Source: Ectothiorhodospiraceae bacterium
Lineage (GTDB): Bacteria > Pseudomonadota > Gammaproteobacteria > Nitrococcales > Aquisalimonadaceae
Length of the DNA: 32,686 nucleotides
Direction of reading: 5' to 3'
Assembly: GCA_007125985.1 (NCBI GenBank)
Contig: SLCE01000192.1
Coordinates: forward strand, 1 to 32,686
The translations under genes were made by a program, and so were the position numbers. A model generated the notes under the pieces. That model did not search any database and was not told the DNA's origin. It was given only the letters and a program-made list of their open reading frames with translations. Every line of letters starts with the position of its first letter. The stretch's first letter is position 1. Positions 5,674 to 32,386 of this stretch are shown in pieces.

Positions 5674-6735
5674 ATGACCATGCGGAAAGGGCGCGGCGCC
5701 GTCAACAACATGCCGGGCCGCTTTGAACAACGGGTGACGGAAGCCGTGGATGACGGCTGGCCGCAGGCGGACGAAACACCGTCGCTCCAGACCCGGGCCG
5801 AAGCCGAACAGGCCCGACGCATCATCAGTCGCAACCGCTCGCCGGATGTGCCATTCGACCGTTCCATCAACCCGTATCGGGGCTGTGAACATGGCTGCAT
5901 CTACTGCTTTGCCCGGCCGACGCATAGCTATTTGAACCTCTCCCCCGGCCTGGATTTCGAAACGCGCCTTTACTATAAAGCCAACGCGGCGGAAGCACTG
6001 GAACGGGAATTGCGGCAAGCGGCCTACCGCTGTGCTCCGATCGTGCTGGGCACCAACACCGACCCCTACCAACCTCTCGACCGTCGCCTGGGCATCACCC
6101 GCCAGCTATTACGCGTACTGCTGGAATTCCGTCACCCGGTGAGCATCATCACCAAAGGCCATCACCTGGACCGGGATCTGGATCTGCTCAAGGCACTGGC
6201 ATCAGACAACCTGGTTTCCGTCTGTGTCAGCCTCACCAGCCTGGATCCCGCATTGAAGCGCCGACTGGAACCGCGAGCCACAGGGCCGGCCAGACGTCTG
6301 GAACTGATCCGGCTGCTACACGAGGCAGGCGTTCCGGTCACCGTGCTGATCGCCCCGGTGATTCCGGTACTGACCGATCCGGAACTGGAGCGCCTGGTCG
6401 CCGCGGCGGCGCATGCAGGCGCGGACGCCGCCGGCTATGTACTGCTCCGTCTTCCCCATGAGGTCGCGCCGCTGTTCCGCGATTGGCTGGCAACGCATTA
6501 TCCGGGCCAGGCTGGGCGGGTCATGGCACAGCTTCAGGGTGCCCGCGGCGGGAAGGATTACGACAGCCGCTTTGGGCATCGCATGCGCGGTGGCGGCCCA
6601 TTTGCCGACCTGATCCAACAGCGCTTCCGCGTTGCCTGCCGTCGTCACGGTCTGCAGACACGCGATCTTCGCGGGCTGGATACCAGCCGCTTCCGCCCTC
6701 CGCCAGCGCCCGGCGATCAACTTGCGCTCTGGTAA
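5674..6735 (+). CDS. PA0069-family radical SAM protein, SOS-controlled
   Basis: A 353-residue radical SAM enzyme of the PA0069 family, related in its core to SplB-type (spore photoproduct lyase) proteins. The iron-sulfur motif CEHGCIYC (CxxxCxxC) lies around residues 72-79, after YRG, and is followed by FARPTHSYLNLSPGLDFE, characteristic of this family. Its substrate is not known to me. It begins just after cydC but has its own LexA box overlapping the promoter, so it is probably induced by DNA damage and may act in DNA repair or nucleotide salvage. ATGs at 5674 and 5680 are both possible starts; neither has a strong ribosome-binding site, and the leader would be only about 20 nt. Confidence 0.88.
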   Translation: MTMRKGRGAVNNMPGRFEQRVTEAVDDGWPQADETPSLQTRAEAEQARRIISRNRSPDVPFDRSINPYRGCEHGCIYCFARPTHSYLNLSPGLDFETRLYYKANAAEALERELRQAAYRCAPIVLGTNTDPYQPLDRRLGITRQLLRVLLEFRHPVSIITKGHHLDRDLDLLKALASDNLVSVCVSLTSLDPALKRRLEPRATGPARRLELIRLLHEAGVPVTVLIAPVIPVLTDPELERLVAAAAHAGADAAGYVLLRLPHEVAPLFRDWLATHYPGQAGRVMAQLQGARGGKDYDSRFGHRMRGGGPFADLIQQRFRVACRRHGLQTRDLRGLDTSRFRPPPAPGDQLALW

Positions 6736-9790: not shown

Positions 9791-11131
9791 TCAGTCAGCC
9801 GGGCTGCCATAGAGATCGTGTTCGTCGGAACTCTTGATGACCACGTCCACAAACTCTCCGGGGAGCAGGCCTTCCGCACCGTGCAAGTGCACCAGACCGT
9901 CCACGTCCGGCGCATCCGCGTAGCTACGTGCAATGGCGGCGTCACCGTCCACCGCATCCACCAGCACCTGCACAGTCTGACCCACAAAGCCGGCCAGCTT
10001 CTCTGCACTGATCCGCGCCTGCAAGGCCATCAACCGCTGCTTTCGCTCTTCGGCCACCTCGGGGTCCACGGCATCCGGCAGGGCGTTCGCCCGGGCGCCG
10101 TCCACCGGTGAATAGGTGAAACAGCCCACGCGATCCAGCCGCGCCTGTTCGAGGAAATCCAGCAACTGCTGGAAGTCGTCCTCGGTTTCTCCCGGGAAGC
10201 CGACGATGAAGGTGGAGCGCACCACCAATTCCGGGCAGATTTCACGCCAGCGCTGCAAGCGCTCCAATACCTGCTCTCCACCGGCCGGTCGGCGCATGGC
10301 CTTCAGGATGCGCGGGCTCGCATGCTGCAGCGGCATATCCAGATACGGCAGAATGCGCCCTTCGGCCATGAGAGGGATCAGCGCATCCACATGGGGATAC
10401 GGATAGACATAGTGCAGGCGCACCCATACGCCCAATTCGCCCAGCGCGTCAGCCAGGGCAGCCACCTCCGTGCGCCATTCCTGGCCGTTCCACTGGGCGG
10501 CCTCATATCTCAGGTCCACGCCGTAGGCCGAGGTGTCCTGGGAAACCACGAGCAGTTCCCGCACCCCGTCCCGCACCAGGCGTTGGGCCTCCCCGAGCAC
10601 CGAATCGATGCGCCGGCTACGCAGCCGGCCGCGCAGATCCGGAATAATGCAAAACGTGCATTTATGGTTGCAACCTTCTGATATTTTTAAATAAGCATAA
10701 TGCCGTGGCGTGAGCTTCACGCCACTATCCGGCAGCAGATCAAGAAACGGGCTGCGCGGCGGCGGTGGCAACTGGGCATGCACCGCCTCCATCACCGCCT
10801 CATAATCCTGCGGCCCGGTGATCGCCAGCACATCCGGAAAACGGTCCCGCACCACGGAACCACGGTTACCCAGACAACCGGTGACGACAACCTTGCCGTT
10901 CTCCGTCAACGCCTCATCGATGGCATCCAGGGATTCCTCCTGCGCCGCCTCAATGAACGCACAGGTGTTCACCACGACCAGATCCGCCTCATCGTATCCC
11001 CCGACCACGTCGTAGCCCTCCACCCGCAGCTGCGTAAGGATGCGCTCTGAATCAACCAGGGCCTTGGGGCAACCAAGGCTGACAAAACCAATGCGAGGCA
11101 CGGCAATCTGTTGATCGACAGGGGTGAACAT
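9791..11131 (-). CDS. rimO: Ribosomal protein S12 methylthiotransferase RimO
   Basis: A 446-residue radical SAM methylthiotransferase that adds a methylthio group to an aspartate of ribosomal protein S12. The N-terminal domain has its three cluster cysteines in [19 protein letters not shown] and GCLGN. The radical SAM cluster motif is CNHKCTFC, and the C-terminal TRAM domain includes [15 protein letters not shown]. Start chosen at 11131 ([23 protein letters not shown]); the track ORF adds 20 unrelated residues. It is convergent with marR and divergent from the FAD oxidoreductase 65 bases away. Confidence 0.96.
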
Positions 11132-11196: not shown

Positions 11197-12270
11197 ATGA
11201 CCATGAGGTCCACTCCCCCCTTTCTCATTGTTGGCCAAGGACTTGCCGGCAGTTTGCTAGCACACGGGCTGGACCGGCTTGGCGCCGACTTCCGCGTCAT
11301 CGATCCGGGTGGTGCCACGCCCTGCGCCAGTCGGGCGGCGGCCGGACTGCTGAATCCGTACACCGGCCCACGCTACAAGGCACCGCAACCGGCGGAGGTC
11401 TGGTTCCGTGCGGCTGTGAGACATTGGCGATTACTGGAACAGCGGCTGACCACTCCCCTGCTGCATCTGGGCACGCTGTACAGGCTGTTCCGGGATTCCC
11501 AGGAACGGGATCGCGCCATGGCAAGAACTCGGGAGACGGTCCGGCCGCAGATCCGGGTTCAGGCCGCCCCGGCCGCCGCCAGGCTGCGGGCGCCGTTGGG
11601 CTGCGCAGCGGTGGAAGCCGGACAGGTGGACCTGCCTGCCTTTGTCGATGCAACACGCCACTGGCTGCGCCAAAGCGACCGATTGATTGAGGAAGCCTTC
11701 AATCCAGAAGATATGGACGCGGATACCACGGCAAGGCCGCAGTGGCGTGGGCACCCGATACGGGCGCTTGTGCTCTGTGCCGGTCATCGTGCACGGGACT
11801 GGCCCTGGTTCCACCCCCTTCCGTGGCGTATGTCCCACGGGCAGGCGCTGATCCTGGAGCGCACCACGGGACTTGGCCCGCATATGCTGAGCCGTGGCAA
11901 AAATCTTGTTCCGATCGATGAGCAGCGGGCCTGGTTCGGGGCCACCTATGATCGGTATTCGGAACCCACCCGGGACGAAGGAGGTCGCAATCAATTGCTG
12001 GAGGCATTGCGCGACTGCTTCGAGACAGCCCCGGACATCCGGATCCTGGAGCAGGTGGCCGGCGTGCGGGCCGGCAACCGGGAAGGGCTGCTGTTCTGCG
12101 GTGCGCACCCGACCCATCCCCGGCTCTATCTATTCGGCGGCCTCGGATCCCGGGGAACCCTGATAGCACCGCCCGCGGCCACCGCCCTGGCCTCGCATCT
12201 GGTATCCGGCACCCCATTGCCAAGGCGCTGGAGCCTAGCCGGATACTTCGCTGGAGACGGAAAACCATGA
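11197..12270 (+). CDS. FAD-dependent oxidoreductase (DAO fold), possible MnmC(o)-type tRNA enzyme
   Basis: A 357-residue flavoprotein with an N-terminal FAD-binding motif ([20 protein letters not shown], then VIDPGG) and the stretch [19 protein letters not shown]. That stretch is typical of the D-amino-acid-oxidase-fold group that includes the oxidase half of MnmC. The C-terminal FAD segment is [19 protein letters not shown]. It ends in a four-base ATGA overlap with an MnmM/YtqB-type tRNA methyltransferase. Because of this coupling I infer it may cleave the carboxymethyl group of cmnm5U34 in tRNA to give nm5U34, the substrate of MnmM. An unrelated amino-acid or amine oxidase role remains possible. 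ATGs at 11197 and 11203 are alternative starts; an AGGG lies about nine bases before the first. Confidence 0.7.
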
Positions 12271-12836
12271 CACGGCGCCGACACCTGACCGGATTAGCGC
12301 ACACATTGATCGCCGAGATTGCCGGCCCTGGCGACACCGTGCTGGACGCCACCATGGGCAATGGTCACGACACGGCCTTTCTCGCAACGCAGGTCAGCCC
12401 TGGCGGCACCGTTTGGGCACTGGATGTACAATCAGGTGCCCTGGAGGCCACTCAACGGCGCCTAGAAACGGCGACAGAATGTCGGATGGAACTCCGCCTG
12501 CTGGCCCATGAGCGCTTGCAGGAACTGGACACCGGCGCACTGAAGGCCGCGATGTTCAATCTGGGGTATCTGCCCGGCAGCAACCACTTGACCACAACAC
12601 GCCCTATCACCACCTGTGCTGCACTGGATGTGGTCCGTGACCGACTGCTTCCGGGCGGTCGCTGCACGGTACTGGCCTATATCGGCCACCCGGGAGGTAT
12701 GGAAGAAGCGCAAGCGGTGGAGACCTGGTGCCAGCGGCTTGATCCCGCATTGTGGCACTGGACACTGGCAAACCCGCCGGGGACGTCAGCCACCGCACCC
12801 AGGCTGTTCGTGATCAATCGTTACCCAACTGCATGA
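12267..12836 (+). CDS. mnmM: MnmM/YtqB-family SAM-dependent tRNA methyltransferase
   Basis: A 189-residue class I SAM methyltransferase of the former 'rRNA methylase' family that includes B. subtilis YtqB (MnmM), which methylates nm5s2U34 of tRNA to mnm5s2U34. Seen here are the SAM motif VLDATMGNGHDTAFLA (residues about 26-41), the acidic end of the second strand WALDVQ, and the family hallmark FNLGYLPGSNH (about residues 91-101). A late ANPPGTSATAPRLFVI also fits. It overlaps the FAD oxidoreductase by four bases. Its 3' end overlaps a convergent small membrane-protein gene by 23 bases. In gammaproteobacteria this step is normally done by the methylase half of fused MnmC, so an MnmM here is notable. 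Confidence 0.8.
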   Translation: MTRRRHLTGLAHTLIAEIAGPGDTVLDATMGNGHDTAFLATQVSPGGTVWALDVQSGALEATQRRLETATECRMELRLLAHERLQELDTGALKAAMFNLGYLPGSNHLTTTRPITTCAALDVVRDRLLPGGRCTVLAYIGHPGGMEEAQAVETWCQRLDPALWHWTLANPPGTSATAPRLFVINRYPTA

Positions 12837-22555: not shown

Positions 22556-22582
22556 CGGGCGCAGGGGGATGCCCTGCGCCCG
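22556..22582. repeat. dnaK-dnaJ intercistronic hairpin
   Basis: CGGGCGCAGGG-GGATG-CCCTGCGCCCG gives a perfect 11-bp GC-rich stem and five-base loop, 25 bases after the dnaK stop. On the minus strand only a short TTT follows, so it is probably a leaky terminator or a processing/stability element that lowers dnaJ relative to dnaK. Confidence 0.7.
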
Positions 22583-22607
22583 GATTCACACCTTACATGA
22601 AGGCGAC

Positions 22608-24533
22608 TTATTTCTTGTCGTCGTCCTTCACTTCCTCGAACTCGGCGTCGACCACGTCGTCGTCGGTCGAGGAGGAGGCGGACTCCGCACCGGCTTCGCC
22701 GCCAGCCTCACCACCCTGCTGGGCGTAGGCCTTCTCGGCCAGTTTGCCGGCATGCTCGGCCAGGGCCTGGGTCTTGGCTTCGATGGCATCCTTGTCGTCG
22801 CCCTTGACTGCCTCTTCCAGCTCGCCGACCGCCTTCTCCACGGTTTCCTTTTCCCCGGCGTCCACCCTATCACCCAAGTCGGACAGCGACTTGCGAACAC
22901 TGTGGATCAGATTGTCCGCCTGATTGCGGGCATCCACCAGTTCGCGCATCTTGCGGTCTTCCTCGGCATGCGCCTCGGCATCCTTGACCATGCGCTCGAT
23001 CTCTTCATCGTTCAGGCCACTGGAGGCCTTGATGACGATGGACTGCTCCTTGCCGGTGGCCTTGTCCTTGGCGGACACGTGCAGGATGCCGTTGGCGTCG
23101 ATGTCGAAGTTGACCTCAATCTGCGGCACGCCGCGCGGAGCCGGCGGAATGTCGCTGAGGTCGAACCGGCCCAGGGACTTGTTGCCGCTGGCCATTTCGC
23201 GCTCACCCTGCAGCACATGCACGGTCACTGCGGTCTGGTTGTCATCAGCGGTGGAGAAGATCTGCGACGCCTTGGTGGGGATCGTCGTGTTCTTCTCGAT
23301 GAGCTTGGTCATCACGCCGCCCATGGTCTCGATACCCAGCGACAGCGGGGTCACGTCCAGCAGCAGCACGTCCTTCACGTCACCGCCCAGCACACCACCC
23401 TGGATGGCGGCACCGATGGCCACGGCTTCATCCGGGTTAACGTCCTTGCGGGCATCCTTGCCGAAGAACTGCTTCACGGCCTCCTGCACCTTGGGCATGC
23501 GGGTCTGACCACCCACCAGGATGACTTCATCCACTTCCGAGGCCTTCAGGCCGGCGTCCTTCAGTGCCACCTTGCAGGGTTCGATGGTGCGCTGCACCAG
23601 CCCATCCACCAGCGACTCCAGCTTGGCGCGGGTCAGCTTGATGGCCAGGTGCTTCGGACCGCTCTGGTCCGCCGTGATATACGGCAGGTTGATCTCGGTC
23701 TGCTGGCTGGAGGACAGCTCGATCTTGGCCTTCTCAGCTGCTTCCTTCAGGCGCTGCATGGCCAGCTTGTCGCCACCCAGGTCCATGCCCTGATCCTTCT
23801 TGAACTCGGCAATCAGATAGTCGATCACCGCGCGGTCGAAGTCTTCGCCGCCCAGGAAAGTGTCGCCATTGGTGGAGAGCACCTCGAACTGCTTCTCGCC
23901 ATCCACGTCGGCGATTTCGATGATCGAGATGTCGAAAGTACCGCCACCGAGGTCGTACACGGCCACCTTGCGATCACCACCTTCCTTGTCCAACCCGTAG
24001 GCCAGCGCAGCGGCGGTGGGTTCGTTAATGATGCGCTTGACATCAAGACCGGCAATCTTGCCGGCATCCTTGGTGGCCTGACGCTGGGAGTCGTTGAAGT
24101 ATGCGGGCACGGTGATCACCGCCTCGGTGATCTCCTCACCCAGGTAGTCTTCCACCGTCTTCTTCATCTTCTGCAGCACGCGTGCGGAGACTTCCGGCGG
24201 CGCCATCTTCTTGCCGCGTGCTTCCACCCAGGCATCACCATTGTCCGCCTGGACAATGTGATAGGGCATTTCCTTCACGTCGCGCTGCACAACCTTTTCG
24301 TCGAAACGGCGGCCAATCAGCCGTTTGACGGCGTACAGGGTGTTTTCAGGATTGGTGACGGCCTGGCGTTTTGCCGGCGAGCCGACAATCACTTCTCCGT
24401 CTTCGGCAAACGCCACGACGGACGGCGTGGTGCGCTCGCCCTCGCTGTTCTCGATGACGCGCGCCTTACCACCTTCCATGACCGCCACACACGAGTTCGT
24501 GGTGCCCAGGTCAATACCGATAATCTTTCCCAT
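22608..24533 (-). CDS. dnaK: Chaperone protein DnaK (Hsp70)
   Basis: A 641-residue Hsp70. The N-terminal ATPase domain opens with [19 protein letters not shown] and has the signature strands [13 protein letters not shown] and [14 protein letters not shown]. The linker [19 protein letters not shown] precedes the peptide-binding domain, and the lid ends in a typical acidic tail ([18 protein letters not shown]). Ribosome-binding site AAGGAG lies ten bases before the ATG. It works with DnaJ and GrpE encoded on either side. A 662-residue ORF on the opposite strand is a coding shadow. Confidence 0.99.
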
Positions 24534-24613
24534 GTCTGTGAGCTCCTTGATGCTTAGCCTGTTCGACGGGCTGAATTGCTGTTGATCCCTAGATTAGGGC
24601 GTGGCCACCGATT

Positions 24614-32022: not shown

Positions 32023-32386
32023 GGGGGCGACATGGTTTCGACGCAGTTCGTGAATCCTGAGGTGCATGCCGAGGATGTCATCTACCCTCGTAAAAAATGA
32101 TGGCCAACTTAAAATAGTTGCCAACGACGAAAACTACGCTCTAGCGGCCTAAATCCCGCTAGCCGTTGATCAGTAGGTGCCTGTGCCTCTGTCCCAACGG
32201 TCGTAGATCACAGGACCGCAGTTGATGGGTACCGCCTGCACCCGCTTCTGTTAAATCAATCAGGCTAGTTGAACGTGATCCGTTGTCTGCCGGGAAGCGT
32301 TCGGCGAATGTAATAGGCGGGCTAAGCATGTAGATCCAAGGGTGGATCATCTGCGGACGCGGGTTCGATCCCCGCCGCCTCCACCA
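32023..32386 (+). ncRNA. ssrA: Transfer-messenger RNA (tmRNA)
   Basis: A one-piece tmRNA of about 364 nt. The 5' end GGGGGCGACATGGTTTCGACG is characteristic. The 3' end CGGGTTCGATCCCCGCCGCCTCCACCA gives a T-arm with TTCGA loop and an encoded CCA. The 5' GGGGGCG pairs with 3' CGCCTCC (one G-U) to form the acceptor stem. The tag frame lies inside and encodes ANDENYALAA then TAA. The RNA rescues stalled ribosomes together with SmpB, encoded just upstream. The 114-residue ORF on the other strand here is a shadow. Confidence 0.98.
32120..32152 (+). other. tmRNA tag-peptide reading frame
   Basis: The resume codon is GCC at 32120, then codons for A-N-D-E-N-Y-A-L-A-A and TAA. With the alanine carried by tmRNA the degradation tag is AANDENYALAA, identical to the E. 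coli tag, so ClpXP/SspB-type recognition should be the same. Confidence 0.95.

Follow-up and report, generated by a model that had tools for sequence, protein, structure and literature searches.

In Escherichia coli, the bifunctional enzyme MnmC combines an oxidase (MnmC1) with a methylase (MnmC2). In Bacillus subtilis, the methylation reaction of MnmM is established and requires nm5U as substrate (PMC9976899). In this regard, an MnmC(o)-like oxidase was stated to be unknown in MnmM organisms, and Bacteroides were described as having MnmC(m) but lacking MnmC(o) (Cho et al. 2023, PMC9976899). The locus studied here, within a 32,686-nucleotide stretch of contig SLCE01000192.1 from an Ectothiorhodospiraceae bacterium (the window, hereafter), raises the question of whether a flavoprotein encoded together with MnmM could be such an oxidase. 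Our analysis leads us to propose, with a probability of about 0.84, that the two genes constitute a unit that would replace bifunctional MnmC, the flavoprotein being the putative cmnm5(s2)U34 oxidase and MnmM the methylase.

Results

The first gene of the pair (11,197–12,270, forward strand) is an open reading frame for a DAO-fold FAD oxidoreductase of 357 amino acids (Pfam DAO PF01266 at 9.6e-29). The second, mnmM (12,267–12,836, forward strand), encodes a predicted nm5(s2)U34 methyltransferase of 189 amino acids (NF053511) that contains the motif FNLGYLPGSNH. Stop and start codons share an ATGA (12,267–12,270, forward strand), confirming the overlap noted in the original prediction and pointing to translational coupling; a possible ribosome-binding site for mnmM, GGAGACGG, was recognized by inspection only within the flavoprotein gene (12,253–12,260, forward strand). 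Upstream, the border is formed by a divergent gene outside the pair, encoding a RimO-like methylthiotransferase (UPF0004, radical SAM, TRAM; 9,791–11,131, reverse strand), whose start codon lies 65 bases from the flavoprotein gene. Downstream of mnmM come genes of the other strand, so that the two genes appear to stand alone as a unit.

The identity of the methylase as an MnmM-type enzyme is borne out by its score of 166.6 bits against the NCBIfam model NF053511 (tRNA_U34_MnmM), above the curated cut-off of 135, and the protein also matches solved MnmM/YtqB structures. Mutants of B. subtilis MnmM and its essential residues have been described (PMC9976899). Out of seven such residues (K11, D34, N101, Y104, K110, Y141 and H144), five are identical in the alignment, D34, N101, Y104, Y141 and H144 corresponding to D35, N98, Y101, Y138 and H141 of the window protein. 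The positions of K11 and K110 are occupied by H12 and H107, as they are in part of the class set.

In the rest of the genome, which is 98.9% complete and in 248 contigs, no Methyltransf_30 (MnmC2) domain was found, and no further MnmC1 or ThiO is present among the PF01266 proteins. According to family models, the remaining full-length DAO proteins are similar to AmaA, DadA and SoxB, and two further ones resemble GlpD, as judged from their sequences only. No protein of the genome passes the radical-SAM model TIGR01212 (best score 29.7 bits, cut-off 180), which we take to be the family covering MnmL, a radical-SAM protein. MnmG (914 bits) and MnmE (327 bits) are encoded next to each other, and therefore the precursor cmnm5U can be made. 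The flavoprotein–MnmM unit is the only finishing system found in this genome, although the missing 1% may contain a few more genes. A complete MnmC elsewhere in the genome, which the original prediction had named as evidence against it, was not found.

Other features of the window were recorded along the way. A PA0069-family radical SAM protein is encoded at 5,674–6,735 (forward strand; 481 bits, cut-off 360) and a tmRNA gene, with the tag peptide ANDENYALAA, at 32,023–32,386 (forward strand). In addition, a 662-codon frame at 22,569–24,557 (forward strand) matches the Pfam family 'NAD-specific glutamate dehydrogenase' at 5e-210 and lies antisense to dnaK (22,608–24,533, reverse strand); very likely, this Pfam family is spurious and was built on antisense dnaK frames.

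The flavoprotein family fits no NCBIfam equivalog. The window protein scores 77.3 bits against the MnmC1 model TIGR03197, still its best NCBIfam match though under the cut-off of 174, and 60.3 bits against the ThiO model TIGR02352, under the cut-off of 251. In a tree of 63 proteins, whose bootstrap was almost but not fully settled and which did not include IdaA, the family forms its own clade (100/99) beside MnmC1 (100/100) and ThiO (99/97), and the window flavoprotein lies inside neither of the latter two. The flavoprotein does not group with the amino-acid dehydrogenases, a placement that had been regarded beforehand as speaking against an oxidase of this pathway. As the family profile is slightly nearer to ThiO than to MnmC1 (hhalign scores of 272 and 241, respectively), we do not call the family a member of MnmC1.

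MnmC residues G271, G273, G518, R567, G578 and G619 are more than 98% conserved (PMC3648344). All six are kept in the flavoprotein, as G13, G15, G248, R291, G302 and G320, while a counterpart of R653 is absent and a seventh glycine, G287, was outside the comparison. Near the C-terminus, the family carries G-F/L-G-S/A-K/R-G (GS[KR]G), like the ALGSRG of MnmC1, where ThiO has GHFRNG (FRNG). The predicted structure (pLDDT 90.4, pTM 0.91) retrieved iminodiacetate oxidase, glycine oxidases and MnmC in Foldseek, with glycine oxidases among the top matches. The name of iminodiacetate oxidase implies the removal of an N-carboxymethyl group. MnmC1 and glycine oxidase have been noted to have their fold and probable chemistry in common (PMC3648344).

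Were the flavoprotein a glycine oxidase (ThiO), or some other amine oxidase with a small-molecule substrate, that shares an operon with MnmM by coincidence, this would account for the common fold, for the slightly nearer ThiO profile, for the top Foldseek matches and for the lack of any other ThiO among the PF01266 proteins of this genome. We nevertheless consider this explanation very improbable, given that the score of 60 bits stands against a cut-off of 251 and the clade is separate from ThiO. Moreover, most other genomes with MnmM and the flavoprotein encode a second, lower-scoring DAO protein, which fell in the ThiO clade in all eight cases placed in the tree, and the distribution of the flavoprotein follows that of the nm5U methylases, as described below.

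Joint inheritance was surveyed in 276 genomes of the window's class, where MnmM was counted over the NF053511 cut-off and MnmC2 at 45 bits or more, leaving uncounted weak matches to the MnmC2 model in G001 and G226 (23–25 bits). MnmM is present in 22 genomes and the family flavoprotein in 21, its profile scores being bimodal (at least 363 bits in these 21 genomes and no more than 126 bits in all others). Both occur in 20, always adjacent and overlapping, that is, in 20 of the 22 MnmM genomes and 20 of the 21 flavoprotein genomes (Fisher 3.6e-27, uncorrected for kinship, related genomes not being independent). Of the 276 genomes, 63 have MnmC2, and not one of these carries MnmM or the flavoprotein, a zero overlap with a chance of about 0.003, likewise uncorrected for kinship. 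The survey called for in the original prediction thus gives the flavoprotein in 20 and MnmC2 in 0 of the 22 MnmM genomes. Within the order to which the window belongs, one genome (G062) has instead a long MnmC-type frame of 711 amino acids. In addition, four sample families (f60, f4, f71 and f79) include some members with both genes and others with neither, suggesting repeated joint gain or loss.

Three genomes depart from this pattern. In G031 (L086), the gene of the family flavoprotein lies on one contig of 3.4 Mb, with MnmM and MnmC2 absent genome-wide, and G138 (L087) and G236 (L088), which belong to one family, have MnmM without the family flavoprotein and without MnmC2. In these last two, the ammonium route of MnmEG, which has been described (PMC3648344), could supply nm5U.

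The two genes overlap in all 20 class-level pairs, that of the window among them, and therefore the arrangement cannot be ascribed to chance. The mnmM start lies 1 to 35 bases inside the end of the flavoprotein gene, individual lengths being possibly off as start codons were picked by rule, and the type of overlap varies among the pairs. A fusion of both proteins was sought through the reading frames, and no class-level pair shares one; a frame of 680 amino acids in L075 was rejected as a fusion, since no gene is evident in this open frame ahead of the flavoprotein.

A scan of a species-genome collection with a 7-row subset of the flavoprotein alignment returned 80 relatives, an uneven sample in which Methylococcales dominate. 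They come from Methylococcales, Mariprofundus, Nitrosomonas, Opitutales, Cerasicoccus and Bacteroidota, many from uncultured assemblies and some from cultured genera (e.g., Methylomonas, Nitrosomonas and Mariprofundus). The pairing, first noted in a single gammaproteobacterium, is thus a wider partnership seen across other bacteria. MnmM is directly adjacent in 55 of the 80 loci, overlapping in 50 of them; it lies 0.6–2.7 kb away, with genes inserted between, in four, and the order is reversed in one (L147). In the remaining 20 loci MnmM is not nearby, and their genomes have MnmM elsewhere (8), MnmC2 instead (7) or neither (5). None of 25 genomes searched has both methylases together, G296 showing one weak 24-bit match to the MnmC2 model and no MnmM. 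Since the link between flavoprotein and MnmM outlasts the loss of adjacency, through insertion, inversion or relocation of MnmM (the eight genomes above), we count it in favor of a shared pathway.

In Bacteroidota, 40 of 148 genomes carry the family flavoprotein (225 bits or more). MnmC2/MnmD is present in 25 of these 40 and in 30 of the 108 without it (Fisher 2e-4, uncorrected). Among the 15 carriers in which no MnmC2 was found, at least two (G405 and G401) have an MnmM gene overlapping that of the flavoprotein, which the tree places inside the family clade. The notion of the flavoprotein as a partner of MnmM alone has to be corrected accordingly, as the family occurs also with MnmD, although no family-clade member examined adjoins MnmD. 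That family members are found with one or the other of two unrelated nm5U methylases is, in our opinion, what argues most strongly for placing the flavoprotein in the pathway.

These findings also bear on whether the pair could be a mere horizontally transferred cassette with no shared function. The patchy distribution, with f60, f4, f71 and f79 each mixing pair-bearing and pair-less members, would agree with such a cassette. A passive cassette would predict neither that both genes persist in the same genomes after separation, insertion and inversion, nor that Bacteroidota members go with the non-homologous MnmD, and we give this explanation very little credence.

Different DAO flavoproteins were also encountered in Bacteroidota. 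In G373 (L274) and G318 (L275), a stand-alone MnmC2 gene overlaps the gene of one that the tree places outside the family clade, near MnmC1 with low support, and it was rejected as proof for the family; with MnmC2, it is another candidate split MnmC. Several genomes (L276–L284) encode middle-scoring flavoproteins (about 120–180 bits), often with MnmC2, that lie outside the family clade and possibly constitute yet another MnmC(o)-like group. The middle score tier of Bacteroidota (134–183 bits) was left out of the evidence on account of this position in the tree.

Discussion

Together, our findings support well, at the level of sequence, the split MnmC pathway put forward in the original prediction for the predicted oxidase and MnmM, on the basis of joint inheritance, conserved coupling and the lack of MnmC2. 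With its occurrence following that of either nm5U methylase, the flavoprotein would be best explained as the oxidase removing the carboxymethyl group from cmnm5(s2)U34. We infer its reaction and its tRNA substrate as follows. MnmE and MnmG would put the carboxymethylaminomethyl group onto tRNA U34, and the FAD of the flavoprotein would oxidize the C–N bond of the glycine-like N-carboxymethyl side chain. Hydrolysis of the resulting imine would yield glyoxylate and nm5(s2)U34, which MnmM, with SAM, would convert into mnm5(s2)U34.

The flavoprotein might instead act on the same U34 group at another step or in another direction, leading to a different xm5U end product or to a reversal. Indeed, co-occurrence ties it to the pathway and not to the step, and G031 has the flavoprotein with no methylase found. 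This is very unlikely in our view, as the fold of glycine oxidase and iminodiacetate oxidase fits C–N oxidation of an N-carboxymethyl amine and MnmM requires nm5U as substrate (PMC9976899). Weighing against removal of the carboxymethyl group by the flavoprotein are the profile nearer to ThiO, the failed MnmC1 cut-off, the absent R653 counterpart, the exceptions G031, G138 and G236, and the 15 of 40 family-carrying Bacteroidota in which no MnmC2 was found.

The balance of the evidence leans toward the clade being a third, previously unassigned cmnm5U34 oxidase family, interchangeable between two unrelated methylases: MnmM would be the partner in Proteobacteria, Verrucomicrobia and some Bacteroidota, and MnmD in most family-carrying Bacteroidota. 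Such pairs may already be mentioned in Jaroch 2024. If true, the family would fill part of the missing-MnmC(o) gap noted by Cho et al. 2023, a function would be given to a flavoprotein family outside all NCBIfam equivalogs, and a tRNA pathway would turn out to be built from swappable, non-homologous parts. The modified U34 base helps accurate reading of the genetic code, and the flavin enzyme is a strong candidate for the missing step.

With ThiO and the iminodiacetate oxidase IdaA, the flavoprotein shares the fold and the proposed C–N oxidation beside a carboxylate, whereas their substrates are small molecules, ThiO has FRNG where the family has GS[KR]G, and the clade stands apart from ThiO. 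With respect to E. coli MnmC, the same two steps are proposed and the flavoprotein has the MnmC1 fold, the FAD-site glycines, the R567 equivalent and GS[KR]G; here, in contrast, two separate genes are involved, the methylase is unrelated to MnmC2, and the oxidase clade is separate and under the MnmC1 cut-off. Bacilli reportedly use an MnmL–MnmM route (YtqA/YtqB in B. subtilis; Jaroch 2024), in which the step before that of MnmM likewise falls to a separate enzyme; in the present unit, the partner of MnmM is an FAD oxidase in place of a radical-SAM protein. A review lists MnmL beside MnmC for the nm5 step (PMC12548931). Finally, the stand-alone MnmD of Bacteroidota without a known MnmC(o) differs from the present case in that this methylase is of the MnmC2 type and is not adjoined by the family-clade members examined. 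Both cases have in common a split pathway, and the family flavoproteins that co-occur with MnmD may be its missing oxidase.
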